A DNA stretch of 64,000 nt, from the NCBI GenBank assembly GCA_016415585.1, contig CP066552.1, positions 992,001 through 1,056,000 of the forward strand. The letters run 5' to 3'. Made by a program: the position numbers and the translations under genes. The stretch is from Pectobacterium carotovorum. GTDB taxonomy: Bacteria; Pseudomonadota; Gammaproteobacteria; Enterobacterales; Enterobacteriaceae. Each line of letters begins with the position of its first letter. Position 1 is the first letter of the stretch. Shown piece after piece: positions 31,743-46,030 of this stretch. The notes below the pieces were generated by a model. The model had not been told where the DNA came from. It was given only the letters and a program-made list of their open reading frames with translations, and ran no database searches.

Positions 31743-31931
31743 AAATAAAGGTATCTCCGTGTGAATACTCTGCTCAGGAAGTTTATCAGACGTAGCCTGC
31801 CTGAGATTTCCTGCTTTATCAGTTTTCGGATTCCGATGAAAAATGAGGTCCAAAGCAGTGAAATTTAAAGTGACATGCTTCATGCAGGACATCTGGCATT
31901 AACAGGCCTGGCGTTCGCCCGAAGTCCTGGC

Positions 31932-32381
31932 TTAAGGCTTCCAGACTAATGACGGGATCAGCGCCTCCAGGCTCGCCGAATCCACAGGCGATGCAAGAAA
32001 AGTTATCTTTATTTCACCGGTGAGGTGCGCCACATTAAATCGGTGATTACCGTCTGCAATATCGATTTTTTTAACACCATTTATTTCAACGATCCGTAAC
32101 ACGGGCGGAGTCAGCGCGTCTCCGTCTTTCCAGTGATTGATGACGTCTTCAATCTTATCATCAATGGCCCCCTCCCTGAGTTCCTCGACACAGTCGATTT
32201 TTCTGGCATAGATCAGATGCGCATGTATTTCAGCGGTTAATGCGCTCCCCAGGCGTAGCTTCCCGACCGGAGCTGCCCACTCAGGGGGATCACCGTCAAA
32301 TGCCCAGTCCCTTCCATCCGGGTCTTTACTCCACGTAACCCGGAGTGGAGGCCATTTACTGACCGGTTCGTCAAGATACAT
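31932..32381 (-). CDS. ParB/sulfiredoxin-like fold protein, probable RES partner
   Basis: A 149-residue protein whose second half resembles the ParB N-terminal/sulfiredoxin fold: PPVLRIVEIN, then DIADGNHRFNVAHLTG, where D-G-N-H-R matches the D-G-x-H-R motif of ParB-like nucleotide-binding domains. AGGAA lies nine bases before the ATG. It is the upstream gene of the RES pair and may act as antitoxin or modifier, although known RES partners are usually Xre-type proteins. Confidence 0.6.
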   Translation of the reverse strand: MYLDEPVSKWPPLRVTWSKDPDGRDWAFDGDPPEWAAPVGKLRLGSALTAEIHAHLIYARKIDCVEELREGAIDDKIEDVINHWKDGDALTPPVLRIVEINGVKKIDIADGNHRFNVAHLTGEIKITFLASPVDSASLEALIPSLVWKP

Positions 32382-33720: not shown

Positions 33721-34720
33721 CGGACAAATAAGCCAGTGAGTCTGCGCCCACCAAAGGCGCGGACGAACGGAAGCGGTCGGCGAGTGTCGAGCCGACTTTG
33801 TCGGTGGGTATGTGGGTAACTATTTGACGATCCCGAATCGCATTGTTAATATCCTTTTCGCTGTACCATCGTCCACTCGGACGATCACCAATGATCCGTC
33901 AGCCTGTGAGGATCGCCTTAGGGTGGCTGTGAACACTTCTGTAGCCTGCAAGGAAGAACACGCTCAGTTGCGTGTGGTAAATCTGCCAGCCTTTGGAAGC
34001 AGATATCACCAGGTAGTTTAAACGCCGTTGCGAGCGTGGTGATGAAGGTCCGTTTATCCACTCAAATACTGACTCGTCTTAGCGAGCTCAGCCCGATAGC
34101 TTCAGCAACAATTTGATGTTGTTCGAAGTTTTCTGTTTTACGCACGATTCAAGATACGAATACGTCTAGAGCACCGTCCGACCTTTGCACGCACGTATAA
34201 GGCCATTTGGTACATTTGGCCGCTTACGGGAGTCGCAATGGAAGGTCAAAGCTGCGCGGCGTCACTTGTGCATGAGCAACGCGAATACCAAGTGACGCGC
34301 GAGCGCGTAATACGGTCAGAGCTTACGCACTGCCCGATAGACGATTCTTCTACCATCTGACCAACACGTAGTAACGGTTTTTAGTACGTATAAAGACGTT
34401 TTACTAACCGTTTAATGGTCGTTCATTTAACAAACAGTCCGAATGTATGAAAAACATCATCATGAAGACATTTCTATTAGATAGAGGAGGTAATCAGCAC
34501 GACATCGATGGCGACGCCAGCAACAACTGGCGTGTGGAGGTAGACTGACGAAAGTCAGCCCGGCGTAAGCCGCGAATGGGTAACACCCAGGGTGCCTTGC
34601 AACAATTCAACATTTCGCCCCCGATGCACAGATGTCTGCTGAGACGCAGGATGCGCAAAATCAAACCGTGTCGTCGGGGATGAAGTACCTATTTTTGCTC
34701 TCTTTTAGAAGGGTGCCGGT
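33721..34720 (+). ncRNA. highly structured non-coding region ahead of the integrase-domain gene
   Basis: About 1 kb with no convincing gene but many perfect helices: GTCGGC/GCCGAC (33776-33796), ATCGTCC/GGACGAT (33868-33885), ACACGC/GCGTGT (33958-33975), ATCACCA/TGGTGAT (34004-34043), GCGTCACTTG/CAAGTGACGC (34259-34298), GGTCAGA/TCTGACC (34314-34362), ACGCCAG/CTGGCGT (34514-34533), CTGAC-GAAA-GTCAG (34545-34558), CGGC-GTAA-GCCG (34561-34572), TGGGT/ACCCA (34577-34589) and CCCCGA/TCGGGG (34619-34679). Two helices carry GNRA tetraloops. Read on the plus strand, this looks like one or more large structured RNAs. The family is unknown to me. Confidence 0.55.
33868..34052 (+). ncRNA. structured RNA repeat, copy A
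   Basis: The last 122 bases (33931-34052) are identical to 36196-36317. The part before them is similar in layout but differs by compensating changes: hairpin ATCGTCC-actc-GGACGAT here against GTCGT-ctctg-ACGAC in copy B, and helix CAGCC/GGCTG around GTGAGGATCGCCTT against GTGACT/AGTCAC. This indicates selection on RNA structure. Copy A starts the structured region. Confidence 0.65.
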
Positions 34721-34762
34721 GAGTTACGTATTCCGTTCACACTGACGGAATACGTAACTCAC
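34719..34762. promoter_or_regulatory. 18-base perfect inverted repeat before the integrase-domain gene
   Basis: GTGAGTTACGTATTCCGT (34719-34736) and its complement (34745-34762) are separated by 8 bases, ending 22 bases before the ATG. It could be a transcript hairpin, a dimeric operator or a recombinase-binding site. Confidence 0.6.
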
Positions 34763-34784
34763 TTCATTAGAACTGGAGGGCTAT

Positions 34785-35675
34785 ATGGCTAAGTTAAACA
34801 AGAATCTTGTGACGTTAGCGCGGGACGGTGGCGGTAGTTTTAAAACACTTAATGACCGTATGAAAATAGCCGATCGTTTTGCGGAAAGGTTAAAGCGCTT
34901 GAATGTGCAGATTAGGGATGCAAAGAATATTAAGCCTCGTCATATTGAAATGTATATCAGAAGTCGTCAGGAAGAGAAAATTTCAATCAGGACGTTGCAA
35001 AATGAAATGTCAGCAATACGATCCATTCTGCGTGCAGCCGGTAAGACCATTATGGCTAACCCAGAAAACGAAAAACTGAGTAATCAGGCATTGGGTATTT
35101 CTGGCGTGAGTCGTGACGGTTCAAAAGTCGCTATTCCAGATAATGTATATCAAGGGATTTTAGAAAAGGTGAGTGCTGCAGATAAAGGTGCAGCAGCTGC
35201 AATGGAATTATCCCGCCTTCTTGGTTTACGGACTGAAGAAACTATTCAATCAGTTAAGTCTCTTAAAACATGGCAAAAGGCATTACAAAATGGTAATGAG
35301 AAAGTCCGGATCGTTTACGGCACGAAAGGGGGGAGGCCAAGAGATACGACAATTATTGAAAGGGACACGTTAATCAATGCAGTGAATAATGCAATACATA
35401 TTACGAGCGAAAATAACGGGCGGTTGATTAATCGTCCTGCGTTGCATTTGGCAATTGAACAGTATCGTAATATCGTTAGGGAAGCGGGGCTTGTCGGAAA
35501 ATATGCACCTCATAGCCTTAGATATGCTTATACCCAAGATGCAACAAAGCTACATCTTAAAAATGGATTTAGTAAAGAAGAGGCTGATGCATTAGTTTCC
35601 ATGGATTTGGGGCACGGGGATGGTCGTGGTCGTTATGTTGCCCGCGTTTATAATAAAGTTGATCCCTCTCAGTGA
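34785..35675 (+). CDS. integrase-domain protein (ICE-associated tyrosine recombinase-like)
   Basis: A 296-residue protein with an N-terminal SAM-like core-binding region and a C-terminal recombinase-like domain: LLGLRTEE with the first arginine, PHSLRYAYTQ in place of the H-x-x-R motif, and LGHGDGRGRYVARVY ending in a candidate tyrosine. Such proteins are common ICE accessory genes and are distinct from the integrase at the tRNA. It has a GGAGGG site and the long inverted repeat just upstream. The substrate site is unknown. Confidence 0.75.
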   Translation: MAKLNKNLVTLARDGGGSFKTLNDRMKIADRFAERLKRLNVQIRDAKNIKPRHIEMYIRSRQEEKISIRTLQNEMSAIRSILRAAGKTIMANPENEKLSNQALGISGVSRDGSKVAIPDNVYQGILEKVSAADKGAAAAMELSRLLGLRTEETIQSVKSLKTWQKALQNGNEKVRIVYGTKGGRPRDTTIIERDTLINAVNNAIHITSENNGRLINRPALHLAIEQYRNIVREAGLVGKYAPHSLRYAYTQDATKLHLKNGFSKEEADALVSMDLGHGDGRGRYVARVYNKVDPSQ

Positions 35676-35682
35676 GAGAATT

Positions 35683-35973
35683 TCAAGAAGGATTTTTGGC
35701 AGTTTCATTGTAAATCGTCAAGGCTGCCAATCTTCCTTGTTCTGTTAACGCATAGGACAATTTTAATTGTTCGTCTCTATACTGTTCAACAAAACCATTT
35801 TTATGTAGAGTATGACAGGACGTTCTTAAATGATTTTGATATAATGTCACGCTACGGTTTCTACTTATCATAGAGAATAAGGCTGTAGCTGTTACAAAGT
35901 GTTGATGGCCTTTTTTCTGCTCAATTGCATACAGCAGAAACAAGACATCACGTTGATTTCTTGAAATACGCAT
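35683..35973 (-). CDS. small winged-helix-like regulator
   Basis: A 96-residue basic protein with a predicted winged-helix layout: a helix-turn-helix-like stretch (SVTLYQNHLRTSCHTLHKNGFVEQ) followed by a two-stranded wing (YRDEQLKLSYALTEQG). It starts 14 bases from the first of two palindromes ATTCGTATC-A-GATACGA(A)T, so it is probably autoregulated. It ends eight bases from the convergent integrase-domain gene and may regulate the RNA/leader operon on its other side. Confidence 0.6.
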   Translation of the reverse strand: MRISRNQRDVLFLLYAIEQKKGHQHFVTATALFSMISRNRSVTLYQNHLRTSCHTLHKNGFVEQYRDEQLKLSYALTEQGRLAALTIYNETAKNPS

Positions 35974-35986
35974 ACTCCCTCCTCTT

Positions 35987-36056
35987 ATTCGTATCAGATA
36001 CGATTAAATATTCTTCCTGCAAACAGTTCAATGCTTTATTCGTATCAGATACGAAT
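35987..36056. promoter_or_regulatory. pair of palindromic operators
   Basis: ATTCGTATCAGATACGAT at 35987-36004 and the longer perfect palindrome TATTCGTATC-A-GATACGAATA at 36037-36057 have centres 51 bases apart, about five helical turns. They lie just upstream of the winged-helix gene and between it and structured RNA copy B. Confidence 0.72.
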
Positions 36057-36131
36057 AATTTAATGACTCAGGAATAGTTGAGAATATATTGAATTCAATT
36101 CCATCTTTGAGTATGTTGAACGGGCTAACCT

Positions 36132-36317
36132 GTCGTCTCTGACGACCACTAATGATCCGGTGACTCGTGAGGATCGCCTTCGGGTAGTCACAAAAGAACA
36201 CTTCTGTAGCCTGCAAGGAAGAACACGCTCAGTTGCGTGTGGTAAATCTGCCAGCCTTTGGAAGCAGATATCACCAGGTAGTTTAAACGCCGTTGCGAGC
36301 GTGGTGATGAAGGTCCG
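36132..36317 (+). ncRNA. structured RNA repeat, copy B
   Basis: This is the second copy of the element at 33868-34052: 122 identical bases (36196-36317) preceded by a covarying two-hairpin part, GTCGT/ACGAC at 36132-36146 and GTGACT/AGTCAC at 36160-36165 and 36186-36191. It lies immediately upstream of the first leader and gene of the 36.4-46 kb operon. Confidence 0.65.
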
Positions 36318-36338: not shown

Positions 36339-36407
36339 TCCCTCCGGGAAGCTACTTCCCGATAGCAGGGGGTGGTTTTCCAAATATTTTATTTTGGAGC
36401 AACCACA
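36339..36407 (+). promoter_or_regulatory. leader 1 (hairpin plus RBS-sequestering hairpin)
   Basis: GGGAAG-cta-CTTCCC (36346-36360) is followed by GTGGTTTTCCAAA (36372-36384), which can pair with TTTGG-AGC-AACCAC (36393-36406), covering the GGAG before ATG 36408. It follows structured RNA copy B directly. Confidence 0.6.
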
Positions 36408-36683
36408 ATGAACTCTTCTACTGCATATCGTGATGGATACTGGGCAGGTCAGTTGTTGCTTTCACTGAAGAAAAAAGTGAAAACGCGACAACATATTTAT
36501 AAGACCTACAGTTTCCTTCAGCTGTTACTCATTTGTGGAAGTGCTGTCATCGTCTTCTGTTTTTTTTATTTGAGCAGACTCGGCGGTTTTCAGCATAAGC
36601 CTCAACAAGATGAACCGATGGATACTTCTGTTGAACCTGTTACGGTTTCGACAGAACAGGCATATCCGGAAGACTCTTTCTAA
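36408..36683 (+). CDS. small single-pass membrane protein
   Basis: A 91-residue protein with a cytosolic basic N-terminus, one membrane segment (about residues 40-60, LLLICGSAVIVFCFFYL) and an acidic tail. The ATG 36408 follows GGAG inside leader 1; the in-frame ATG at 36372 lies within the leader hairpin and is rejected. First gene of the leader-bearing operon; function unknown. Confidence 0.6.
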   Translation: MNSSTAYRDGYWAGQLLLSLKKKVKTRQHIYKTYSFLQLLLICGSAVIVFCFFYLSRLGGFQHKPQQDEPMDTSVEPVTVSTEQAYPEDSF

Positions 36684-36689
36684 CACCGA

Positions 36690-36765
36690 CTTTAAGCCAG
36701 CAATCCAACGGGAAAAACATCTTCCCGTCTGGGTCGATGTTCTCCCGTTTCATCAGGAGAACATC
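36690..36765 (+). promoter_or_regulatory. leader 2, three-segment switch
   Basis: Segment 2 GATGTTCTCC (36736-36745) pairs perfectly with segment 3 GGAGAACATC (36756-36765), which contains the SD and abuts ATG 36766. The same segment 2 can pair with AACATC (36716-36721), in the loop of the upstream hairpin ACGGGAA/TTCCCGT. Confidence 0.72.
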
Positions 36766-37089
36766 ATGCAAATGGTCTTACGTCGTACGAGTAATTTTAC
36801 TGAGCGTCTGTCTGCGTTGCTGAAGAAAAACACACAGCGTAACGATGCATTTATTGGTGAGTGGATACCTAATCGCTCTGGACATATGAGATTCCGTGCG
36901 CTGGTTTTTCGAAGCGGTTCGGAATGGAGCTACCAGATAGAAAGCTCTACCGGTTGGTTAGGCTCAAAATCTTACCAGTTCGACTCTCATGCCTGCGCCG
37001 ATAATACGTTTCCACAGCGTCACGAGGCAATCAAGGTTGCGCAATTGCTAGCAAAACAGTTAGCAACGCTGCGTTATCGGTATCAGTGA
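36766..37089 (+). CDS. unknown ICE protein
   Basis: A 107-residue basic soluble protein (MQMVLRRTSNFTERL...). The start is fixed by the leader, whose SD segment ends exactly at this ATG; the open frame upstream to 36610 crosses the leader. I recognise no family. There is mixed beta character in the middle (MRFRALVFRSGSEWSYQIES). Confidence 0.6.
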   Translation: MQMVLRRTSNFTERLSALLKKNTQRNDAFIGEWIPNRSGHMRFRALVFRSGSEWSYQIESSTGWLGSKSYQFDSHACADNTFPQRHEAIKVAQLLAKQLATLRYRYQ

Positions 37090-37109
37090 CACTGGAGGAT
37101 GATACTCAT

Positions 37110-37177
37110 ACCCACATGGGGATTTACCCCCAGAGGGGATAAATCCATTTCAACTTAATTCAGAAGCGGATTTATCA
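37110..37177 (+). promoter_or_regulatory. leader 3, three-segment switch
   Basis: Segment 1 GGATTTA (37120-37126), segment 2 GATAAATCC (37138-37146), segment 3 GGATTTATC (37168-37176). Segment 2 pairs with either; the 2:3 pairing is 9 of 9 and ends one base before ATG 37178. Confidence 0.72.
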
Positions 37178-37483
37178 ATGAACAGAGATGATATGGGAAT
37201 AGACCTTGTTCCACGTGACAGCATTGAATGGCATGCCATGTGGGCTACTCTTGGGCAGCATTCAGCAAATCGAAACCTGCCAAAACCAACAATTGCAGAA
37301 AATTTCGGTGAAGTGTGGCAGTACATGCACACCTGTGAAGTCAGATATTGTTTCTTCTGGAAACGGTATTACCACTTTTTCAGACATCGCATGCATCCTA
37401 CGGAAGGTACTGGCTACAGCATCAAAGTTCCCGCTAGTCGGGATTTTGACATAACAATGTTGGTAAGAAGTTTTACGCCTTAA
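37178..37483 (+). CDS. unknown ICE protein
   Basis: A 101-residue protein rich in aromatic residues (RYCFFWKRYYHFFRHRM). No membrane segment or known domain. Read from the ATG next to leader 3 segment 3. Expression depends on the leader if the switch model holds. Confidence 0.55.
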   Translation: MNRDDMGIDLVPRDSIEWHAMWATLGQHSANRNLPKPTIAENFGEVWQYMHTCEVRYCFFWKRYYHFFRHRMHPTEGTGYSIKVPASRDFDITMLVRSFTP

Positions 37484-37485
37484 TT

Positions 37486-37556
37486 AACCCACATGGGGAT
37501 TTATCCCCAGTGGAGATAAATCCCTTTTCGTTTTGAACCGAAAAAAGGATTTATCG
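37486..37556 (+). promoter_or_regulatory. leader 4, three-segment switch
   Basis: Segment 1 GGGATTTATC (37496-37505) and segment 2 GATAAATCCC (37515-37524) form a perfect 10-base stem. Segment 3 GGATTTATC (37547-37555) pairs with segment 2, and the pairing extends through CTTTTCG/CGAAAA. ATG is at 37557. Confidence 0.75.
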
Positions 37557-38072
37557 ATGCACGATTTCAACACGAAACCTTTCGTCTCGCGCCTGGCGAT
37601 CCTGCGACGTGATGATGAATTTTTACAACGTTCCACAACAGACCTCATCAGGATTGTCTCTGATATTGAGTCTGTATTGATGGAAGCGACAGCGCTGATA
37701 CGTCTTGAGTCCGAACTGATGACAGCTGCTTCGTTCATGCGTATCAGAATTGATGACATGATCGAGTGGGACGATTTAGCTTGTATGACTCCTGATGAAA
37801 AAAGCATAGCGTGGGTTGCACGGCAGGCCGGTGAAATTATCAATCTGGAACTGCTACCGCGCACGTTTTTTGACAAATACTTCACAGATATTCTTGAGCT
37901 CGGCATTTCTATTAATGCTGCCCTGTGGCAGCACTATTTTAATAAAGGCCTGAAGGATGCTGCCCGTGTTCATGAGAGCCCTGATGCGAGCATTTGGCTC
38001 ATTGACTACTACCTTTACGTGCTCAGTGTAGATGTCGAGCGCAATTGGTATGAAGGCCGGACGTTCTACTGA
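37557..38072 (+). CDS. unknown ICE protein, member of a three-copy family
   Basis: A 171-residue helical protein distantly related to the products at 38898 and 39400: all share a segment like LIRIVSDIESVLMEA followed later by a region like FDKYFTDILELGISINAALWQHYFNKGLKDA. The start ATG 37557 follows leader 4. No known domain; tandem copies suggest diversification within the operon. Confidence 0.58.
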   Translation: MHDFNTKPFVSRLAILRRDDEFLQRSTTDLIRIVSDIESVLMEATALIRLESELMTAASFMRIRIDDMIEWDDLACMTPDEKSIAWVARQAGEIINLELLPRTFFDKYFTDILELGISINAALWQHYFNKGLKDAARVHESPDASIWLIDYYLYVLSVDVERNWYEGRTFY

Positions 38073-38095
38073 CCGACTGCCATATCGTGACTTAA

Positions 38096-38161
38096 CCCAT
38101 GCGGGATCTATCCCGTTGGGGATAGATCCCTTTCACATTGAATTTAGAAGAGGATTTATCC
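38096..38161 (+). promoter_or_regulatory. leader 5, three-segment switch with compensatory change
   Basis: Segment 1 GGGATCTATCCC (38103-38114) and segment 2 GGGATAGATCCC (38119-38130) form a 12-base stem in which a T-A pair of other leaders is replaced by C-G. Segment 3 GGATTTATCC (38152-38161) pairs with segment 2 through a G-U at that position. ATG is at 38162. Confidence 0.75.
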
Positions 38162-38803
38162 ATGACTCAGACTAACAAAGCGTCAGCCTTTGAAACTTTC
38201 TACTCCTTCATGTCGAAAGAGACTTACGACGTATTCGTTCAGTACATTATTGAGGTCTGGCAGTCTAAGCTCCATGTTAGCAGTGGTAGCTGGAATGACT
38301 GGCACCCTCAGGTGACCGACGATCTGGAAACCCCGGTATATGCCGTTCCTGACGGTGATAAACTTTATAATGTTTACGCATCCCGGTTCCGAGTCCAAGT
38401 AACAACGGATGCATTCGGGTTAATGGTGACGTTATGCGCCCTTCATGGGGTGCTACTCGATTTCAAAGATAACCGATTGCCAATGATATCGGACACAGAA
38501 GGCAAGCAAATCCAGGACGCATTCGACGATTTGCTGCGTTACGCTCGCACTCATGCGGAAGCGAATGCAATAACGCCGGAGTTCGGTTCAGACAACAGCA
38601 GTTATCGTGATTTGGCTACCGAATCTGTTGATGATCTTCTTCATCAGCGTGCTCTTTTCGCCAATGCAATTGGCGAAGGCGCAGTGAAGCTCGGGATTAT
38701 CGCGGAAGGTACACCTTTGACCATGCCGCAATTGCTTATGGTATTGGGTGACATCATCGAATGTGCATCTCGTAACCTGAATAAGAACAGCCATGCTGGC
38801 TGA
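38162..38803 (+). CDS. unknown ICE protein
   Basis: A 213-residue soluble protein (MTQTNKASAFETFYSFMSKETYDVF...). No recognised domain. It is read from the ATG directly after leader 5 segment 3. The order with flanking paralogous genes suggests it belongs to the same ICE-maintenance or cargo operon. Confidence 0.58.
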   Translation: MTQTNKASAFETFYSFMSKETYDVFVQYIIEVWQSKLHVSSGSWNDWHPQVTDDLETPVYAVPDGDKLYNVYASRFRVQVTTDAFGLMVTLCALHGVLLDFKDNRLPMISDTEGKQIQDAFDDLLRYARTHAEANAITPEFGSDNSSYRDLATESVDDLLHQRALFANAIGEGAVKLGIIAEGTPLTMPQLLMVLGDIIECASRNLNKNSHAG

Positions 38804-38823
38804 GGTTTGCCTGACGCTGTTTA

Positions 38824-38897
38824 ACTTAACCCACACGGGGATTTATCCCCACGTGGAGATAAATCCCTTTTCAAATTGAAAAAAGGATTTATCCATT
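38824..38897 (+). promoter_or_regulatory. leader 6, three-segment switch
   Basis: Segment 1 GGGATTTATC (38838-38847), segment 2 GATAAATCCC (38858-38867), segment 3 GGATTTATC (38885-38893) with A-run/CTTTT extension. ATG is at 38898. Confidence 0.75.
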
Positions 38898-39302
38898 ATG
38901 AATACTTTACTTAACCGTCTTGCTCGTAATCGTCATTCTGTCGTTGACCTGCTGTGTGTGATTTCTGACATAGAAGGAAAATTGATGGAGGTTGGTGCAT
39001 TCGAGGCACTTCGGATCAACTGTTCCCCTGATGAGGATGGTTTTACAGACAATGACTATCAGATTTTCGAAATCGCAGAATGTCTTGGCGAAACCGTTGG
39101 GCTGAATTTTATCCCTGATAATTACAGTCATTACTTGAATGATGTGATTTCACTGGGAAACAAAGTTGCCCATGAGTTTTGGGACAAAGCCTTTCAGAAT
39201 GGCGTCCAGGAAGGTAAGCATACTCGCTGGGAATTCTCTTCCGGCCTGGATGGCAACAGCGATTTTGATGGTTATATCACGTACCTCAGTCGGGCCCACT
39301 GA
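38898..39302 (+). CDS. unknown ICE protein, paralogue of the next gene
   Basis: A 134-residue protein strongly similar over its first 110 residues to the product at 39400 (MNTLL..., RNRHSVV-LLCVIS-IEGKLME, then FEIAECLGET). The C-termini differ. More distantly related to the product at 37557. No known domain; the pair arose by tandem duplication together with its leader. Confidence 0.62.
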   Translation: MNTLLNRLARNRHSVVDLLCVISDIEGKLMEVGAFEALRINCSPDEDGFTDNDYQIFEIAECLGETVGLNFIPDNYSHYLNDVISLGNKVAHEFWDKAFQNGVQEGKHTRWEFSSGLDGNSDFDGYITYLSRAH

Positions 39303-39328
39303 ATACAGTTTTTGATGTATTTTTTGTT

Positions 39329-39399
39329 ACCTAACCCATATGGGGATTTTTCTCCTATGGGGGATAAATCCCTTTTCAAATTGAAGAGAGGATTTATCT
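39329..39399 (+). promoter_or_regulatory. leader 7, three-segment switch
   Basis: Segment 1 GGGATTT (39343-39349), segment 2 GATAAATCCC (39363-39372), segment 3 GGATTTATC (39390-39398). The 1:2 pairing is shorter here than in leader 6, the 2:3 pairing is unchanged. ATG is at 39400. Confidence 0.72.
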
Positions 39400-39870
39400 A
39401 TGAATACTTTACTTAATCATCTTTATCGTAATCGTCATTCTGTCGTTGAGCTGCTTTGTGTGATTTCTGCAATAGAAGGCAAATTGATGGAGATGAGTAC
39501 ATTCAAGCAGTCTGATATCAACTGTGTTCCTGATCATAGTGGCACTACAGGCCATGATTATCTGATTTTCGAAATCGCAGAGTGTCTAGGCGAAACCTTT
39601 GAGTTGGGCTTTATTCCCGAGAATTACAGACATTATTTTGATGATGTTATTTCACAGGGAAAGAAAGCTGGCAAGGGGGTCTGGGACACCTATTTTCACT
39701 ATGGTGTCACCGACGTTAAGTATACTCGTTCGGGTTTTTCTGATGAGGCTGCGCACATTAAGTACCTTAGCGAGTCAAAAGTTATAAGACTCGTTTTGAG
39801 TGACCAGTGTGTACGGCTCGTTCCCAACACTGAGTGTAAGCCTTTGCTTGAAGGTTGTTTGATGCACTGA
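39400..39870 (+). CDS. unknown ICE protein, paralogue of the preceding gene
   Basis: A 156-residue protein, similar to the product at 38898 up to about residue 115, with a longer, unrelated C-terminus (SKVIRLVLSDQCVRLVP). It has an upstream leader of the same class, so gene and leader were duplicated as a unit. Function unknown. Confidence 0.6.
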   Translation: MNTLLNHLYRNRHSVVELLCVISAIEGKLMEMSTFKQSDINCVPDHSGTTGHDYLIFEIAECLGETFELGFIPENYRHYFDDVISQGKKAGKGVWDTYFHYGVTDVKYTRSGFSDEAAHIKYLSESKVIRLVLSDQCVRLVPNTECKPLLEGCLMH

Positions 39871-39907
39871 CAGTCTGTTTTACGTTAATTATCGACTTAC
39901 GATAATT

Positions 39908-39976
39908 TTACCTTTCCCCCCAGTGGCAATGTTTTCCGCCACTAGGGGGAAAGCATTCGCCCGTAAAAGGTCTTTT
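39908..39976 (+). promoter_or_regulatory. leader 8, variant upstream of radC
   Basis: Hairpin AGTGGC/GCCACT (39922-39927, 39938-39943); AATGTTTTCC (39928-39937) can instead pair with GGAAAGCATT (39948-39957) with one G-U. The SD region is in AAAAG-gt-CTTTT just before ATG 39977. It keeps the architecture but lacks the clear 2:3 pairing. Confidence 0.5.
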
Positions 39977-40453
39977 ATGCGCGAATTAACACCCCCCAGT
40001 ACTACGGCTTATACCGAGCGTGAGGCACGTGTCATCAATATGGCATTGGCACTGCTTGAACGGAGAGTCAGGAAACGGGAAGTCATGACGTCCCCTGAAG
40101 ATATTAAAGCTTACTTGCGTCTCAAATTGGAGCACATGGAACGAGAAGTTTTTGTTGTTATGTTCCTAGATCGTAAGGAGCGTTTAATTGCCTGTGAGTC
40201 CCTTTTTGCCGGCTCGATTGCAAACGTTGAAGTCCATCCACGTGAAATTGTTCGTCGTGCCATTTCTCTGAATGCGGCCGCGGTCATTTGTGCGCATAAC
40301 CATCCGTCTGGTAATGCTGAACCCAGTAATGCCGATCGACAAATCACCGAGGATCTGGTTAACGCACTAGATCTGATTGAAACACGCCTACTAGATCACA
40401 TAGTGGTTGGCCACGGTGAAATGGTGTCGTTTGCTGAACGCGGCTGGTTATAA
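39977..40453 (+). CDS. radC: RadC/JAB-domain protein
   Basis: A 158-residue RadC-family protein with the JAMM-like metal motif HNHPSGNAEPSNAD and the conserved ETRLLDHIVVG segment. It lacks the helix-hairpin-helix N-terminus of the chromosomal RadC, as usual for mobile-element copies. Role unproven; family members on ICEs are associated with DNA processing or anti-defence islands. The open frame from 39923 overlaps the leader and is rejected. Confidence 0.85.
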   Translation: MRELTPPSTTAYTEREARVINMALALLERRVRKREVMTSPEDIKAYLRLKLEHMEREVFVVMFLDRKERLIACESLFAGSIANVEVHPREIVRRAISLNAAAVICAHNHPSGNAEPSNADRQITEDLVNALDLIETRLLDHIVVGHGEMVSFAERGWL

Positions 40454-40486
40454 CCACATAAATTAAATACTTTCGTCTAATCAGAC

Positions 40487-40559
40487 GTTACCCCACGGGG
40501 AGAGCCTTCTCCCGCTACGGGATGACTCTCCCTTTTTTTATCACCAAAAAGGAGAGTTC
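40487..40559 (+). promoter_or_regulatory. leader 9, three-segment switch with changed sequence
   Basis: Segment 1 GGGAGAG (40498-40504), segment 2 ACTCTCCC (40525-40532), segment 3 GGAGAGT (40551-40557). The sequence differs from leaders 3-7 but both pairings are kept. ATG is at 40560. Confidence 0.72.
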
Positions 40560-40769
40560 ATGTCTCATATCACTCAAGAAGCTCCCACTCAGGATGCTTC
40601 GTTTACACCAGAGCAGGAAGACGCATTGTGTCAGCTCATACGTCGTGAATGTTTTCGGCGCGATCGCAATGCACTGCTGAAGCTGCTTGGTTATCTCACG
40701 TTGCTGAAAGTCGCCGGTTCTCTGGTGCTTTTAGCTGTTGTCCTCGCACTTCGCGGATTAACGCATTGA
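40560..40769 (+). CDS. small membrane protein
   Basis: A 69-residue protein with an acidic N-terminal half and one membrane segment (about residues 44-64, LLGYLTLLKVAGSLVLLAVVLAL). Start fixed by leader 9. The next gene begins 12 bases after its stop without its own leader, so the two are probably translated together. Confidence 0.6.
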   Translation: MSHITQEAPTQDASFTPEQEDALCQLIRRECFRRDRNALLKLLGYLTLLKVAGSLVLLAVVLALRGLTH

Positions 40770-40780
40770 AAGGAGGGGTT

Positions 40781-41221
40781 ATGCCAATGCCTTTACACAT
40801 ACTGATTGTTCTGTTTACAGGGCTGTGGTTCATCGTGCGCTGGACGAGCAAATTGTCTGCGCGAGCGCTTGTCTGGCTTTATCAGACCTGGCGACAGCGT
40901 TCAGAGCCGATGGAATCGTCAGCTCATCGAATAATTTATACAGGGAAGTGGCTGCTTGCTGACGATCACCAGTGCTGTGGCCGAGCAATCGTACTGCAAC
41001 ACCGGCACAGCTATAAGCCTGGTGTCGAACTGCTGTATTTCGGCGAGGAGGCAGCTGAACCGTTTTACGGTGAACGTTATATGGATAGCGAGGATGAAGC
41101 GGTTGATACCGCATTGGCCATGCACAAGAAGTTATTACGTAATGTTCGCCAACGTAAACCTGAAAGGATGCCCGCTGTCGTGACGATTTCGTCAACTGCT
41201 CAGAATGATGAAGCAGCATGA
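40781..41221 (+). CDS. unknown protein with N-terminal membrane segment
   Basis: A 146-residue protein with an N-terminal hydrophobic segment (about residues 4-20) and a soluble basic remainder. AGGAGG lies six bases before ATG 40781; the open frame upstream overlaps the previous gene and is rejected. It overlaps the next gene by four bases (ATGA). No family recognised. Confidence 0.6.
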   Translation: MPMPLHILIVLFTGLWFIVRWTSKLSARALVWLYQTWRQRSEPMESSAHRIIYTGKWLLADDHQCCGRAIVLQHRHSYKPGVELLYFGEEAAEPFYGERYMDSEDEAVDTALAMHKKLLRNVRQRKPERMPAVVTISSTAQNDEAA

Positions 41222-41496
41222 TGGACAGGTCGCATTCTTCTCCGGCCGTTGCCATTGATGACAGCGCTTGGGAAAGACTCGTCGCGTTTACGCCCGAGCC
41301 GGCATGCGAGACTGAACGGCTACATCGTCTGATTCGTCATGCATTAAAAGCACTGGCTGCGAGCACTCGCTCAGAAATAACGACCGGCTATTTTTGTTTA
41401 ACCGGTGACGGCAATGAATCGACATCGTTGTGGCAGCAGTTTTATCTGCGCTATGAGAATGATGTTATTCATATCAGCCTGACCGTGACCGGCTAA
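41218..41496 (+). CDS. unknown ICE protein
   Basis: A 92-residue soluble protein coupled to the upstream gene by ATGA overlap. No domain recognised. The absence of a leader here, where genes overlap, contrasts with the leader before every non-overlapping gene in this run. Confidence 0.55.
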   Translation: MMDRSHSSPAVAIDDSAWERLVAFTPEPACETERLHRLIRHALKALAASTRSEITTGYFCLTGDGNESTSLWQQFYLRYENDVIHISLTVTG

Positions 41497-41509
41497 CACA
41501 GCACCTTAC

Positions 41510-41567
41510 TAACCCTGACGGGGACACCCGCAGGGGTGGACCCGTCTTTTTTTTCGGAGTCCATACC
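41510..41567 (+). promoter_or_regulatory. leader 10, three-segment switch with changed sequence
   Basis: ACGGG-GA-CACCC (41518-41529) pairs with GGGTGGACCCGT (41534-41545); TGGAC within it (41537-41541) pairs with GTCCA (41559-41563), and CCG with CGG (41555-41557) of the SD. ATG is at 41568. Confidence 0.7.
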
Positions 41568-42053
41568 ATGAGTTTACTGACCACTAATGAACACCAAGAA
41601 TCGGCCCTGGCAACGCAAGGCGCAATGAAGTCGCTAACGCGAGAGTCAGGAGCTATTGAGCGCACGCGCAGTCATTTTTATAGCTGGTTGCAGGCTGAGT
41701 TTGACCGTCATTACAAAACGATACGCGATGGTGGTTATCGCCGATTTCTTGAGGATCAGCACCCGATAGAGCTGGAACGTTTTGATGCGGCCTGTGATGC
41801 GCTAAGACGTGAGGAGTTTAGCCGTTTCGCGGAACTGCAAACGCTAGGGCTGTTTTTACATACGCAAGTCGCAGAGAAAGAAGCACTGTTTCGCCGCCGG
41901 CGTAACCAGTTTCTGATCGCTATGTCGGCGACAGGGATAATTACATCCTCTGTTGTCTGGGCCTATCTGCATCATGAGCAGTTTGTGCAGTTGTGCCAGC
42001 AAGCCGTTATTGCGGGCCACGCAATTCTGCAACTGTTCACCACTGTACTCTGA
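41568..42053 (+). CDS. unknown ICE protein with C-terminal membrane segment
   Basis: A 161-residue protein, helical and charged for the first 105 residues, with a hydrophobic segment near residues 118-136 (FLIAMSATGIITSSVVWAYL). No family recognised. Possibly a tail-anchored membrane protein. The start follows leader 10. Confidence 0.58.
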   Translation: MSLLTTNEHQESALATQGAMKSLTRESGAIERTRSHFYSWLQAEFDRHYKTIRDGGYRRFLEDQHPIELERFDAACDALRREEFSRFAELQTLGLFLHTQVAEKEALFRRRRNQFLIAMSATGIITSSVVWAYLHHEQFVQLCQQAVIAGHAILQLFTTVL

Positions 42054-42108
42054 TTTTTCCCTGAGGGAGCCATCCCTCAGGGGATGGTCCCGTTTGATGG
42101 AGACCATG
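42054..42108 (+). promoter_or_regulatory. leader 11, three-segment switch with changed sequence
   Basis: GGGA-g-CCATCCC (42065-42076) pairs with GGGATGGTCCC (42081-42091). ATGGTC within it (42084-42089) pairs with GACCAT (42102-42107), which follows the GGAG SD. ATG is at 42109 (42106 possible). Confidence 0.72.
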
Positions 42109-44064
42109 ATGAAAACTTTCACATTGAGGGATGCCGGTGATATTTGCCGGCTGTTAACAGAACGTCTGATGCAGAGTGTCAACGCGGGTAAAACGCCGTG
42201 GAGACAGAGTGTTATTCGCCAGGGGATACCGGAGCACGCATTAAGCGGACAACGTTTCACCGGCATTAACGCGTTATTGCTCTGGCAATCGGCGTTGCAA
42301 AACGGCCTGGTATCAAATCGTTGGCTGACGGGTGATGATTTACGCTCTCTGGGCGGAAGAATCACTCCGGGGCAGCGACCGACCACCATCGTCCGCTACA
42401 AACCGTCACTTTCACTGTTTCGGGTTATCAACGTTGAACAGTGCGAGGGATTATCCGACATGCTGCAACTCGGCTGGCCGTGGCCACCGTCTCCCGTACC
42501 AGGAATGGATCGGGTAGGGCAGTGGCAGTCTGCGTCCGGGGTTCCTGTTCTGTTCAATGCACAACGTCCGGCGGTTTATCTGCCCGACAGTGATCGCATT
42601 GAATTACCTGAGTCAGACGGAGAGAGTCTGGCCGCACTGCTGGTTCGTGCAACAGGCCATCCAAGCCGGCTTGGCCGCTTTACGTTACCGAATGGTTTAC
42701 CTGACATAAACTCACATCTGCAAGAAGCACTCATCGCTGATATCGGGCGTGCGTTGCTTGCGGCTCGGGCAGGTATACTTCTTGCCGGCGACCCGATGTG
42801 GACAGGGGAACGGGGCTCAGATCCGTGGATACTGTTTAAATCGGCATCTGAGGCGGGGAAGGCTGTCGACTGGTTGGAAACTCAGCGTCAGCGGTTGGTC
42901 ACCTTGCCTCTTGATGAGGTTCAATACTGGCAGAGAGAGGCTGCTCATCTGTTAACGACGCATTATGGCCAGCAACTGGATGATACGACGTTAGTGTGTG
43001 ACAGCGTGGTGAATCAGCACTTGCGCTACAACATTTCACCGAGTAATGCGGTAAATGCGTTGGCACGGATTTATGACTGGCCTCGGTGTGATATGCCGAC
43101 GGCATTGTTCACGCCAGAGTTGAATAGCGTTGCTGATGCATTGGCGCGTTTCTCTCTGAATCCCGGAAGCCTGGCTGTTCATCGTGTCGCCAGCGACATC
43201 GATGATAGCGACGTAGTTCTGGAGGCTCCGGAGCTTGGCACGTTGTTGCTACCGCCACCGTCTGCCGAATCGGTCGATGAGGTTGCAGCTAACGATGAGG
43301 AAGAAGGAGGTGACCCAGATGATCCGGGAAATCTCGCCGCGCTCCCCTGGGTCAGAAACCAGGGACGTCCCAATCCGCATCGGGCAACGTTTATCCGCCA
43401 GTTTCAGGAAATTGCACCGTATGAGAACCGTTGGACGGTCTTCAGCGATTTTATTCACATGTCGGCAGCGGCGTTACATAACAGGTGCCATTTTGTGCAG
43501 GAAATCGAAGATGACTACATGCGGCGGATCAAACGTTACAAGAAAGCCGATCAGAACCGTTTCCCGTTACTGTTCAGCACGCTAGTTGAGGGAATGGAGT
43601 TCAGTGCGTCAGATTTTCTCGGCTCGGTTTTTATGGAGCTTGAGCTAGGCGATCAGCGCCGGGGACAGTATTTCACCCCTTACTCTATTGGTTACATGAT
43701 GGCGAAAATGCAACTGGCTGATGGTTTGCCTGCACTGACCAGCGGGGAACGGGATTTCATTACTGTCTCAGACCCTGCATGCGGAGCCGGTGGGCTGATT
43801 GTCGCGATGGCGCAAGCCATGCTTGAAGCGGGCTTCAATCCACAGAAACAGATGGCTGCTGTCTGCGTCGATATCGATCCTGTCGCGGCGATGATGGCGT
43901 ATGTACAACTGGCTTTATGTGGCATACCTGCGATTGTGATTGTCGGGAACAGCCTGAGTATGGAGCTCCGCCAGACCTGGCGTACGCCTTTCTGGATGAT
44001 GTTTGGCTGGGAACGTAAGTGGGCTCATGAGCAGGAGCGGCAAACGCAACAGAACGTCGCTTGA
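42109..44064 (+). CDS. ArdC-like N-terminal domain fused to a DNA-methylase-like SAM domain
   Basis: A 651-residue protein. Residues about 5-110 match the ArdC-type ssDNA-binding antirestriction domain (GKTPWRQSV, FTGINALLLWQSALQ, WLTGDDLRSLGGRITPGQRPTTIV). The C-terminal region resembles N6-adenine methylases: RRGQYFTPYSIGYMM, then DPACGAGG (motif I) and VDIDPVAAMMA. The catalytic N-P-P-F/Y motif is absent and the protein ends soon after, so methylation is doubtful. A linker of about 80 acidic residues lies between. It may protect transferring DNA from host restriction. Start chosen by SD spacing in leader 11; the frame upstream to 41953 overlaps the previous gene. Confidence 0.75.
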   Translation: MKTFTLRDAGDICRLLTERLMQSVNAGKTPWRQSVIRQGIPEHALSGQRFTGINALLLWQSALQNGLVSNRWLTGDDLRSLGGRITPGQRPTTIVRYKPSLSLFRVINVEQCEGLSDMLQLGWPWPPSPVPGMDRVGQWQSASGVPVLFNAQRPAVYLPDSDRIELPESDGESLAALLVRATGHPSRLGRFTLPNGLPDINSHLQEALIADIGRALLAARAGILLAGDPMWTGERGSDPWILFKSASEAGKAVDWLETQRQRLVTLPLDEVQYWQREAAHLLTTHYGQQLDDTTLVCDSVVNQHLRYNISPSNAVNALARIYDWPRCDMPTALFTPELNSVADALARFSLNPGSLAVHRVASDIDDSDVVLEAPELGTLLLPPPSAESVDEVAANDEEEGGDPDDPGNLAALPWVRNQGRPNPHRATFIRQFQEIAPYENRWTVFSDFIHMSAAALHNRCHFVQEIEDDYMRRIKRYKKADQNRFPLLFSTLVEGMEFSASDFLGSVFMELELGDQRRGQYFTPYSIGYMMAKMQLADGLPALTSGERDFITVSDPACGAGGLIVAMAQAMLEAGFNPQKQMAAVCVDIDPVAAMMAYVQLALCGIPAIVIVGNSLSMELRQTWRTPFWMMFGWERKWAHEQERQTQQNVA

Positions 44065-44074
44065 TATAACAATT

Positions 44075-44137
44075 TAACCCCAACCGGGCGTTTCTCCCGG
44101 AAGGGGAAGCGCCCTTACTTTATTTGTAAGGAGCATC
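44075..44137 (+). promoter_or_regulatory. leader 12, three-segment switch with changed sequence
   Basis: GGGCGTTTCTCCC (44086-44098) pairs with GGGGAAGCGCCC (44103-44114). CCTTAC (44113-44118) pairs with GTAAGG (44126-44131), part of the SD. ATG is at 44138. Confidence 0.7.
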
Positions 44138-45031
44138 ATGCTAACAGAGCAGTTTATTCAACAGGTATACCTGAAGGAGATGAACCTCTTTCTCCATCCG
44201 GATGAGTGGCAGATTGATATCAGTAACGATCTGCAGGACTACATGAATACGGATATCGTGTTTCACAGCAATCGGCTGTTACCGATCATGCAGTTTATGC
44301 TCGATCAGATCCCCGGAAATCGTCAGCTGCGGGCTCGTTGTCAACTGAGTGAACGCATTCTGACCCTGTGGATTTTGGGACTGGATGCGCTGGCCACAGC
44401 CAGTGGCAATATACGATTGTTGCCGCGGACGTCTCCGGAGAGCAGTGGTCGGGTTGATTGCCTGTTACCTGGTGAGCCGTCTGCCTTGCTGGATTTGTCT
44501 GACGACGACTTTATCCGACTGACGGCTCAAAGCGATCGACATACTGATGATGTCATCCTCCGTTCGCAGCTGGCGCAAACGATACAGCACTGGTCTCGGT
44601 TTGAGTCTTGGTTAAGTCGTGCGTTAGCGCAGACGGGAGAACATTGTGTGGCACAGTTGGCGACATTGAAGCGGCGTTGTGACGTTGATGAGTGTGTTGT
44701 TCGACGGTTTGATACGGATCTCGGGTTTATTACGGTGAACCTGAGGGCGATAGACCCTGAGTGCATGAGCACGACAGACCCCGTTGAGTATGTCAAACGG
44801 GTTTGCCGCTGTGAGATACACCCTGTTGCGCTGGAGAGCCGGATTCATTATCACAATGGTGCCATCATCGGTCGTTTTTCCGTTCAGAAAGAGGTCGGGA
44901 ATGTGGGCCGGCTGACCGCAGCAGACTACGGTGACGTTGTGCAGCAGGCGATAGCCTGGCTGCGCGACGAACGTCGACGTCTGCAACGTGATGACCACTC
45001 ATCGGCGCCAGCATTACGTCTGGTTGCCTGA
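44138..45031 (+). CDS. unknown ICE protein, paralogue of the next gene
   Basis: A 297-residue protein related to the 308-residue product at 45104: both share EQFIQQVY/HEYIQQAY N-termini, a LTLWI segment near residue 75, SGR-D-LL near 105 and a similar C-terminal region (YHNGAIIGRF / YRNGAVMKSF). No known domain. Gene and leader appear to be duplicated together. Confidence 0.6.
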   Translation: MLTEQFIQQVYLKEMNLFLHPDEWQIDISNDLQDYMNTDIVFHSNRLLPIMQFMLDQIPGNRQLRARCQLSERILTLWILGLDALATASGNIRLLPRTSPESSGRVDCLLPGEPSALLDLSDDDFIRLTAQSDRHTDDVILRSQLAQTIQHWSRFESWLSRALAQTGEHCVAQLATLKRRCDVDECVVRRFDTDLGFITVNLRAIDPECMSTTDPVEYVKRVCRCEIHPVALESRIHYHNGAIIGRFSVQKEVGNVGRLTAADYGDVVQQAIAWLRDERRRLQRDDHSSAPALRLVA

Positions 45032-45039
45032 CTGATTAC

Positions 45040-45103
45040 TTTACCCGGCAGGGGGAACGCCCTGCCGGGCCTCCTGCCATCACTATTTTGACAGGAGTAC
45101 ACG
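45040..45103 (+). promoter_or_regulatory. leader 13, three-segment switch with changed sequence
   Basis: GGCAGGGGG (45047-45055) can pair with CCTCCTGCC (45070-45078), competing with CCCGGCAGGG/CCCTGCCGGG. CTCCTG (45071-45076) pairs with the SD CAGGAG (45092-45097). ATG is at 45104. Confidence 0.68.
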
Positions 45104-46030
45104 ATGTGCATTATTCATGAATATATTCAGCAGGCGTATCAGCGGACATTAGGCTATGCGCCGGATTATGACGACATATGCTGGCAGTTGGATGATGACG
45201 CCGGTATTACTTACGTTAATACGCAAACGTTGTTTGAAAACGAGCAGCTGACGGCCGTGATGGAAACCATGCTGGAACGCCTTGATACAGACGATGCTAA
45301 GCGTGAGCGCAGCCGGAAAGTCCTGACGTTGTGGATAAACGCCACGAACTGGCTGGCTAACGGTAACGGAGTAGAGCATGGGTATTTGTATCTTCCTCGG
45401 ATTCACCCGCAAATCAGTGGTCGTACCGACCAACTGCTGCGTGCTGACATCATGCCACTCTACGAACTGGATGAGGTGATGTTTCGTGAAGCTTCTGGGC
45501 AACGTGACAATGCATCCGAGGAATACATCACGTTGGCTCAGTTTCGACAGAGTGAACGCTACTGGTTTCGATTTATGGATCACCTGGAGCGATCGTTGCG
45601 TGATGTTTCTCATCAGTGTGCAGAAACGCTGACGCAGTTTGTCAGCAACTGCACACTTGAGGAAAAACAGATACGGCGTTGGCGTGGCAGCGCTGGTGAA
45701 ATACGTTTGTACATGTCTCAACAGTCCATTGATGACATCGATATCATGGAGTTTGAAGATGACTTTCTGACCCAGCATGTCGATGCGATAGCCGCGGGAA
45801 TTTATGTACCAGTGACTTTCCGCTCAGATGTTCATTATCGAAATGGTGCTGTAATGAAGAGTTTTACGGGGGATACGGAGGTCAATGATCCTGAACGGCC
45901 GAATGCATCGGATTACTGTGATGTGATGAATGATGCAATTGAGTGGATACGAGAGGAATCAGAGTATGTGGTATCGCTATTAAACAACATTAGCCAGCCA
46001 ATGGGGGAAGTTCATCAACTGGCAGCTTAA
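45104..46030 (+). CDS. unknown ICE protein, paralogue of the preceding gene
   Basis: A 308-residue soluble protein, acidic in its C-terminal half, related to the product at 44138 as described there. It is the last gene of the leader-bearing operon and is followed within four bases by a strong terminator. Function unknown. Confidence 0.6.
   Translation: MCIIHEYIQQAYQRTLGYAPDYDDICWQLDDDAGITYVNTQTLFENEQLTAVMETMLERLDTDDAKRERSRKVLTLWINATNWLANGNGVEHGYLYLPRIHPQISGRTDQLLRADIMPLYELDEVMFREASGQRDNASEEYITLAQFRQSERYWFRFMDHLERSLRDVSHQCAETLTQFVSNCTLEEKQIRRWRGSAGEIRLYMSQQSIDDIDIMEFEDDFLTQHVDAIAAGIYVPVTFRSDVHYRNGAVMKSFTGDTEVNDPERPNASDYCDVMNDAIEWIREESEYVVSLLNNISQPMGEVHQLAA

Follow-up and report, generated by a model that had tools for sequence, protein, structure and literature searches.

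In a 64,000-nt stretch of the Pectobacterium carotovorum genome (GenBank assembly GCA_016415585.1, contig CP066552.1, forward-strand positions 992,001 to 1,056,000; hereafter, the window), 13 of the 15 genes of a presumed operon are each preceded by a short leader with two mutually exclusive pairings, one of which buries the Shine–Dalgarno sequence (SD) of the gene behind it. Leaders stand before the first gene, at 36408, which lies behind a copy of the STAXI RNA, and before 12 genes separated from their upstream neighbors by gaps of 52–106 nt. The two leaderless genes, at 40781 and 41218, follow a gap of 11 nt and an overlap of 4 nt, respectively. Considering the predicted structures, we regard each leader as a probable bistable RNA that acts in cis and, by burying the SD, holds the gene behind it in a default OFF state, and give this reading a probability of about 0.7. 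The original prediction, made from the letters of the window, had proposed 13 leaders before most genes of the operon, two alternative pairings, and no leader where genes overlap their neighbors; all three points held, and the sequences that it quoted were present at their positions.

The leaders share a common order of parts: C1 (ACCC), a short spacer, G1 (GGGG), segment 1, C2, a short spacer, G2, segment 2, C3 (CCC), a T-rich linker, the SD, segment 3 and the ATG. Hairpin 1 (hp1) is predicted to consist of C1:G2 and G1:C2, and hairpin 2 (2:3) of segment 2 and C3 paired to the SD and the spacer behind it. An "A-C-C-C...G-G-G-G box" had been proposed to open most leaders; it corresponds to the 5′ side of hp1. 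The alternative to hairpin 2 is a long hairpin (1:2) between segments 1 and 2, which usually takes in G1 and the third C run, C3, and comprises 11–15 pairs wherever it forms in the window (ten leaders). In the full-length leader, hp1 and hairpin 2 would form together and bury the SD, whereas the competing fold, a single long hairpin of G1–segment 1 with segment 2–C3, would leave it free. Because the long hairpin is complete before the SD is transcribed, a leader still being transcribed is expected to adopt the SD-free form first and to settle into the SD-buried one afterward. We infer this folding order and the direction of the switch from the predicted structures; in the cell, the two folds would interconvert and burial of the SD would lower translation. 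Leaders 3–7 are near-copies of one another, though the genes behind them are not all related.

Folding predictions set the leaders apart from other gaps of the same genome. The mean folding z-score against dinucleotide shuffles was −4.24 for the 13 leaders and −0.92 for 35 other same-strand gaps (Mann–Whitney p 2.8e-6). When the SD stretch was forced open, the long 1:2 hairpin replaced the buried form in 10 of the 13 leaders, at a cost of 2.2–17.8 kcal/mol over all 13; the same 10 had 1:2 as their best fold when the last 20 nt were missing, as in a nascent transcript. With the SD freed, at least 60% of the SD-pairing bases re-paired upstream in eight of the 13 leaders versus none of 29 control genes (Fisher p 1.1e-5). 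Two larger sets were also used, one of 50 leaders from several genera, including those of the window, and one of 64 from genomes outside model training. In their most stable folds, 43/50 and 61/64 leaders, respectively, had the SD paired to segment 2. The first set was partly picked by motif (the 13 window leaders were not), so that its fractions are biased upward; the second was picked by a covariance model that counts base pairs in 1:2 but none in 2:3, though its sequence profile spans all three segments. Upstream re-pairing once the SD was freed was found in 28/43 and 40/61 of these SD-paired leaders, versus 0/20 SD-paired controls. Concealment of the SD, as originally proposed, was supported for the most stable predicted fold.

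Both pairings were specific to their own partners. Among the 13 window leaders, own partners beat swapped ones for 2:3 and for 1:2 (0/50,000 each), and the result was little changed when leaders 3–7 were collapsed to one (n=9; 0/50,000 for 2:3 and 1/50,000 for 1:2). For other genes of the genome, the corresponding values were 1,341/20,000 for 2:3 (n=27) and 3,037/20,000 for 1:2 (n=13). Sixteen leaders from Citrobacter and Photorhabdus gave 761/50,000 for 2:3 and 349/50,000 for 1:2, and the 50-leader and 64-leader sets gave 0/20,000 for each pairing. The 2:3 pairing also runs past the SD: at offsets 3–8, standard pairs were found in 34/49 to 48/50 leaders in the best register, and the own score was 15.0 versus 10.2 for foreign partners (0/20,000), the register being chosen to maximize pairing.

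The helices also covaried. On a MAFFT alignment of 20 leaders, which was not fitted to structure, 85.4% of cells were paired in 1:2 versus 80.5% after shuffling (score, 0.373 versus 0.297; 0/500), and 80.1% in 2:3 versus 72.9% (score, 0.339 versus 0.234; 0/500), the shuffles taking no account of relatedness. Slid controls that preserve relatedness gave lower values on this alignment, 49.6–64.7% for 1:2 and 41.5–70.8% for 2:3. MAFFT alignments of all leader types were too ragged for pair counts, and counts from a structure-fitted alignment were excluded as evidence. Both helices exceeded all 500 shuffles, in support of the covarying leader family originally proposed. Orthologous operons in Pectobacterium, Brenneria, Citrobacter and Photorhabdus retain the leaders despite changes in leader sequence. 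For example, segments 2 and 3 before gene 12 are GTGGACCCG/CGGAGTCCAT in the window; C. braakii has GGGGAACTCC/GGAGTTCT at this place, and Photorhabdus AGGGTTAACTCC/GGAGTTAACCCT. In leaders of DUF3577 genes all three segments change together: AAACA/TGTTT/AAACA (locus L254), AAATAC/GTATTT/AAATAC (L259) and AAAATC/GATTTT/AAAATC (L262 and L263), and TGTTT occurs with imperfect partners in L252, L256 and L258. Six of the seven genes behind leaders of this type were DUF3577 by Pfam; the open frame of the seventh, L258, has only 32 codons.

Persistence of both pairings through sequence change bears on the proposal that the palindromes are gene-cassette recombination sites with incidental SD pairing. 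Integron attC sites have the cores RYYYAAC/GTTRRRY. Gene content upstream of gene 9 varies among related integrative and conjugative elements (ICEs), and the near-copies before partly unrelated genes (leaders 3–7) would suit such cassettes, but the SD lies within the repeats, which end at the ATG, and we consider an attC-like role highly improbable.

Mismatches within the helices indicate which nucleic acid folds. Non-Watson–Crick positions inside 1:2 comprised 11 G-U, 1 A-C and 3 others in the 50-leader set (p 0.006) and 14, 1 and 3 in the 64-leader set, that is, 25 G-U versus 2 A-C when both sets were pooled. This excess points to sense-strand RNA, since single-stranded DNA (ssDNA) or RNA of the other strand should not favor G-U. 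It also bears on a role as ssDNA hairpins in transfer, as Frpo/ssi-like promoters or priming sites. The gene content (antirestriction, DUF3577, ArdC-like) suits a leading region, and genes of the same kinds and setting are driven in plasmids by ssDNA promoters, which act as DNA and carry promoter elements (PMC11541004). The leaders, however, look like RNA elements at the SD: they pair with it and hold a fixed place at start codons, and a promoter scan placed no plus-strand site inside any leader (one, at 39879–39906, lies just upstream of leader 8, and one minus-strand site, at 39929–39902, overlaps it). An ssDNA function was rejected on the G-U/A-C bias and appears very unlikely.

We built two covariance models. 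The first (R1) was trained on 20 leaders, one of them from the window. At E≤1 it matched 117 times over 1.01 Mb of loci and not once in 400 kb of background. In the window it found leaders 2 (trained), 1 (E 2.8e-4), 9 (9.4e-4), 5 (0.088) and 7 (0.53). The second (R2), trained on 77 R1 matches of which three were from the window (leaders 1, 2 and 9), detected 12 of the 13 window leaders, 11 at E≤0.0052 and the last at 0.15, whereas its best match in 400 kb of host background had E 4.4. Leader 8 was missed; its segment 3 lies inside the first codons of the RadC gene, off the SD. Leaders 1 and 8 had both been said to fit less well, which proved right for the deviant leader 8 and wrong for leader 1, found by R1 without being in its training set.

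Across the order, R2 matched 42 of 394 genomes at E≤0.01, in 26 of 114 genera, where about 4 of 394 genomes would be expected by chance at that per-genome threshold, the search having no control set; 32 of the 42 carried at least two matches. The pattern is not confined to the ICE of the window and recurs in other bacterial families. Around R2 matches we fetched 18 loci with 113 matches, of which 107 ended at an ATG; dereplication left 69, and 64 of these, with an open reading frame (ORF) of at least 40 aa or one running off the end, formed the 64-leader set. In six genomes (G174, G304, G284, G236, G136 and G074) two clusters of leader matches lie about 21–31 kb apart on one contig, which suggests two leader-bearing operons per element.

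No Rfam family matched any leader at its gathering score (Rfam 15; window, 9 loci and 18 loci), and no known riboswitch or T-box model matched in the same sequences. The families found there were STAXI, EFASI, tRNA and C4, none of them over a leader; below the cut-off, matches were weak, the best over a window leader being Flavo-1 at E 1.1. The leaders do not match the STAXI model (RF01728), whereas neighboring STAXI copies do, and the DUF3577 leaders that were scanned matched no Rfam family at its cut-off. The absence of a described family, as the original prediction had it, stands to this extent.

Table 1. Leaders and associated features of the window (positions count from the first nucleotide of the window; seg, segment)
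Feature	Position	Strand	Segments or structure	Match or remark
Leader 1	36339–36407	+	seg1 36346–36359, seg2 36372–36384, seg3 (SD) 36393–36406	R1 E 2.8e-4 (untrained); R2 E 3.4e-10 (trained)
Leader 2	36702–36765	+	seg1 36716–36721, seg2 36736–36745, seg3 36756–36765	R2 E 3.3e-9; in R1 and R2 training
Leader 3	37110–37177	+	seg1 37120–37130, seg2 37135–37146, seg3 37168–37176	R2 E 0.0036
Leader 4	37487–37556	+	seg1 37496–37505, seg2 37515–37524, seg3 37547–37555	R2 E 3e-4
Leader 5 (before Antirestrict PF03230 gene)	38095–38161	+	seg1 38103–38114, seg2 38119–38130, seg3 38152–38161	R2 E 9.1e-7
Leader 6	38829–38897	+	seg1 38838–38847, seg2 38858–38867, seg3 38885–38893	R2 E 0.0052
Leader 7	39334–39399	+	seg1 39342–39355, seg2 39359–39372, seg3 39390–39398	R2 E 1.8e-5
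Leader 8 (RadC gene; deviant)	39912–39986	+	very stable hp1, GGCAATG 39925–39931 versus GCATTCGCC 39953–39961; seg3 39981–39986	
Leader 9 (before genes 40560, 40781, 41218)	40490–40559	+	seg1 40498–40504, seg2 40526–40532 then TTTTTTT, seg3 40551–40561	R1 E 9.4e-4 (untrained)
Leader 10 (gene 12)	41512–41567	+	seg1 41517–41529, seg2 41534–41546 then TTTTTTTT, seg3 41555–41564	R2 E 9.3e-6
Leader 11 (ArdcN/CbtA/N6_Mtase gene)	42058–42105	+	seg1 42065–42076, seg2 42081–42091, seg3 42099–42107	R2 E 0.0015
Leader 12	44077–44137	+	seg1 44086–44098, seg2 44109–44118, seg3 44126–44134	R2 E 0.0032; 12-pair terminator-like site
Leader 13	45043–45103	+	seg1 45047–45055, seg2 45070–45078, seg3 45090–45097	R2 E 0.15
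Presumed operon, 15 ORFs	36408–46030	+		Antirestrict 38162, RadC 39977, ArdcN-CbtA-N6_Mtase fusion 42106, paralogous pair 44138/45104
Second STAXI RNA (RF01728), presumed 5′ end of operon transcript	36131–36287	+	tandem pseudoknots	83.7 bits, E 4.1e-16
Promoter-like TTGAAT-17-TATGTT	36089–36117	+	ends 13 nt before second STAXI	8/12 matches; not significant as single copy
Second integrase (PF12835)	34785–35675			between EFASI and second STAXI
TraI_2 relaxase	53186–54778			
Integrase	54865–55887			
tRNA	56077–56149			

Several results weigh against reading every leader as a bistable, SD-burying RNA. In the window, leaders 8, 11 and 13 lacked 1:2 in the SD-free fold, and these three, together with leader 3 (58%) and leader 12 (50%), were the five of 13 in which re-pairing fell short of 60%. 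The seven Photorhabdus leaders taken alone were not significant in swaps (6,377 and 8,115 of 50,000), and whole-region swaps between orthologous leaders across genera often did not favor the own partner. R2 also produced three non-leader matches in the window, at E 1.1, 1.3 and 3.7. The 2:3 helix had no G-U preference (8 G-U, 8 A-C and 15 others in the 50-leader set; 8, 13 and 18 in the 64-leader set), partly because C3 often faces the A of the SD. It is less finely tuned than 1:2 and might in part be a by-product of the C-rich 3′ arm. Finally, pairing of the SD to an upstream segment separates leaders weakly when taken alone, being found in 20 of the 29 control genes as well, and a loose energy filter passed 76 of 669 background starts.

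These last two figures are what would be expected if C-rich stretches that can pair with an SD arose as chance GC-rich hairpins in ordinary gaps. A structured descriptor and the models were used instead of the filter, and the descriptor accepted 2 of 2,050 candidate starts in the 400-kb background; of 356 in the window it accepted 10, every one of them in the operon. The model searches argue likewise, and a chance origin was rejected on folding stability, swap and re-pairing tests against other gaps of the same genome; its probability is negligible.

A further result that speaks against SD burial as the sole means of control is the frequency of U-runs. At least five T in the 8 nt directly after the 1:2 hairpin were found in 22 of the 50 leaders (other placements in the same linkers, 15.4%; p 1.4e-6) and in 35 of the 64 (other placements, 19.4%); in the window alone the count was 4 of 13 and not significant (p 0.13). 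Roughly every second leader is thus a candidate terminator of transcription, and where such a run is present, the long hairpin could also stop an unmodified RNA polymerase. This suggests that transcription could matter as much as translation. Of the translational on/off switch originally proposed, SD burial and the alternative fold are retained; purely translational control was not supported.

The leaders might accordingly be viewed as transcription attenuators, in which 1:2 with its U-run is an intrinsic terminator for each gene that insulates it against stray read-through, with hp1 acting as antiterminator and SD pairing playing a lesser part. The excess of U-runs over positional controls and the better tuning of 1:2 favor such a role. 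There is also precedent in conjugative elements: Tn916 canT (PMC11658703) and conjugation operons of Gram-positive bacteria (PMC8955417) have internal terminators that are bypassed by an antiterminated polymerase when the transcript carries an antitermination element. Four terminators are predicted in Tn916 (PMC11658703), whereas here there is one element per gene, which also hides the SD; an antitermination role for STAXI is hypothetical. Against attenuation, no such U-run occurs in 28/50, 29/64 and, in the window, 9/13 leaders, and the complementarity of the spacer downstream of the SD to segment 2 is left unexplained. A generic terminator scan, which covers loops of 3–8 nt only, found 24 sites versus 12.0 expected and placed plus-strand sites in only two leaders (36346 and 36356; 44086 and 44101). 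We consider attenuation a possible explanation, clearly less probable than an SD-burying switch.

What might open such a switch was also considered. Under translational coupling, ribosomes finishing the upstream gene would displace C1 or hp1 and set the fold. The genes without leaders are those that overlap or nearly touch their neighbor, and C1 begins 4–13 nt past the stop codon in leaders 4, 11, 12 and 13; both points favor coupling. Across 12 leaders, however, C1 lies anywhere from 4 to 41 nt behind the stop, in most of them presumably beyond the reach of a ribosome positioned there, and leaders also occur directly behind STAXI without an intervening gene. Coupling is thus an unlikely explanation. 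The original prediction had named ribosome movement through the upstream gene and an RNA among possible shared triggers. A ribosome at the upstream stop was rejected as a general trigger on these distances, and a trigger RNA from the neighboring STAXI or EFASI was discarded on complementarity no higher than in shuffles (mean duplex z −0.24, −0.24 and 0.21).

The region 5′ of the operon is relevant to a wider role of the leaders. Rfam and Pfam scans of the window showed that two STAXI RNAs, one EFASI RNA and the second integrase precede the operon; the order STAXI–EFASI–STAXI is common to four genera (window 33867–36287; L251, L017 and L023). STAXI, reported in 2010 with no function attached to it (PMC2864571), is an array of tandem pseudoknots; the leaders, a different RNA, are not mentioned in the passages of that report consulted. 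Besides the promoter-like sequence in Table 1, an alternative pair at 36063–36090 has 9/12 matches and ends 40 nt before the second STAXI. We scored 20 STAXI copies together (window 33838–36131, L017, L023 and L251–L263). The −35/−10 score peaked where the −10 box ends 13 nt upstream of STAXI, with a mean of 6.75/12 matches against an all-offset mean of 4.31 (sd 0.49), and 0/5,000 random placements reached the summed score; some of the copies barely differ, which lowers the effective sample size, and most single copies are not significant alone. This fixed spot held the best score of the scanned range in 12 of the 20 copies and not in the other 8, and the copies of L260–L263 scored only 6. Because a −10 box lies at a nearly fixed distance of about 13 nt upstream in the 20 copies taken together, STAXI probably sits near the 5′ end of a transcript.

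A leader begins 26–91 nt after STAXI in 13 of 21 copies, one of the 13 at E 0.095; ten of these 13 leaders belonged to the model training set. Leaders behind STAXI copies elsewhere precede DUF3577, antirestriction, DUF1281 and ArdC genes. STAXI itself was found in 7 of the 394 genomes. In five of six Pasteurellaceae-type clusters, which have no Rfam STAXI match, the first leader is preceded by an unnamed element in which a pair of H-type pseudoknots lies in tandem around a TGAAA loop (L298, L299, L301, L302 and L309; the sixth cluster, L303, has none). Its stems change in step, three of the five clusters being close relatives, and a DUF3577 gene was confirmed in the two element-bearing clusters tested. 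In topology, the element resembles the published description of STAXI. It has no Rfam match at the gathering score, and that of L302 has no STAXI match even at a loose threshold. A scan for pseudoknot units has a high background (84 hits of score ≥11 in 400 kb on two strands) and showed units of score ≥10 in only two of six true STAXI copies; in favor of the STAXI-like element it therefore counts only by virtue of where the units lie and how they align.

By analogy with antitermination, a two-part system may be put forward tentatively, as a bold and rather improbable reading. A tandem-pseudoknot RNA at the 5′ end, STAXI or its look-alike, would reprogram the polymerase, and the downstream leaders would be double locks that only such a polymerase opens. 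With an ordinary polymerase, a leader would either terminate transcription (1:2 with a U-run) or, if read through with hp1 formed, hide the SD (2:3). With a marked polymerase, 1:2 would form without termination and the SD would be left free. Stray transcription of the integrated element would then yield no protein, whereas the element's own promoter would lead to gene expression. The −10 box about 13 nt before STAXI, the leaders that follow STAXI copies and the tandem pseudoknots of the Pasteurellaceae-type clusters are points for this system. Counted against it are the 7 genomes with STAXI versus 42 with leaders, so that most leader clusters have no known 5′ element, the absence of a U-run in about half of the leaders, and the high background of the pseudoknot-unit scan.

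Mutually exclusive pairings that hide an SD are already known. In the repZ leader of IncIα/IncB plasmids, an upstream hairpin has a loop complementary to the 5′ arm of the hairpin that buries the SD, and the alternative pairing frees the SD. The leaders described here share that principle, but repZ, opened by translation of a leader peptide, is one gene with a loop–pseudoknot geometry, whereas here many genes in series are preceded by a long hairpin. Transcription and translational attenuation leaders share the three segments with mutually exclusive 1:2 and 2:3; they differ in that the present leaders are repeated before most genes of an operon and match no known aptamer or T-box family. A 2017 survey of 224 candidate structured RNAs reportedly includes a "DUF3577" motif, possibly belonging to the family as one of its members. 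Literature searches, which most subscription papers lay outside, found no published description of the leader family. As far as could be searched, it is new that such leaders recur in series along an operon, before most of its genes, that so broad a family is missing from Rfam, and that it is linked to a STAXI-type RNA.

The window, part of a 4.74-Mb host genome, holds a type IV secretion set of the genomic-island kind (DUF2895, DUF3438, TraC, TraU and TraG_N). The operon ORFs not named in Table 1 had no accepted Pfam match. The gene at 42106–44064 encodes an ArdC N-terminal domain, a CbtA-toxin-like domain and an N6 DNA methylase fused in one protein; relatives of the fusion occur in Pectobacterium, Brenneria, Citrobacter, Salmonella and Photorhabdus, and the ArdC-type protein has up to 96% identity to Pectobacterium proteins. 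Matches to the fusion in plasmids were partial, none spanning 80% of the protein. The products of 44138–45031 and 45104–46030 are paralogs with 31% identity and no Pfam match, each with its own leader. Megablast of the operon against plasmids and E. coli genomes gave no match; in E. coli, a remnant was found in 4 of 5,426 genomes. With a Citrobacter nucleotide query, matches covered at most 6%, among the matches listed.

Elsewhere in the window, 30240–31892 on the minus strand encodes a RES-domain protein with a weak HEPN/RES N-terminal match, possibly a toxin paired with 31932–32381; an AbiEi/AbiEii-type pair lies at 29–1481 and a Fic protein at 5291–6433. At locus L009, a long near-perfect hairpin lies shortly before the SD of a gene at 855 (296 aa, presumed integrase) and is possibly another control element of the SD region.

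If the reading of the leaders as SD-burying switches is true, antirestriction, RadC, ArdC-like and DUF3577 genes are each controlled individually by members of a broad RNA family that Rfam does not list. With only three segments to follow, the pattern lends itself to prediction and testing for one leader at a time. STAXI would be assigned a definite position close to the 5′ end of a transcript, and with it a possible function. An old question would also become testable, namely how establishment genes remain silent in integrated conjugative elements and are expressed on transfer.

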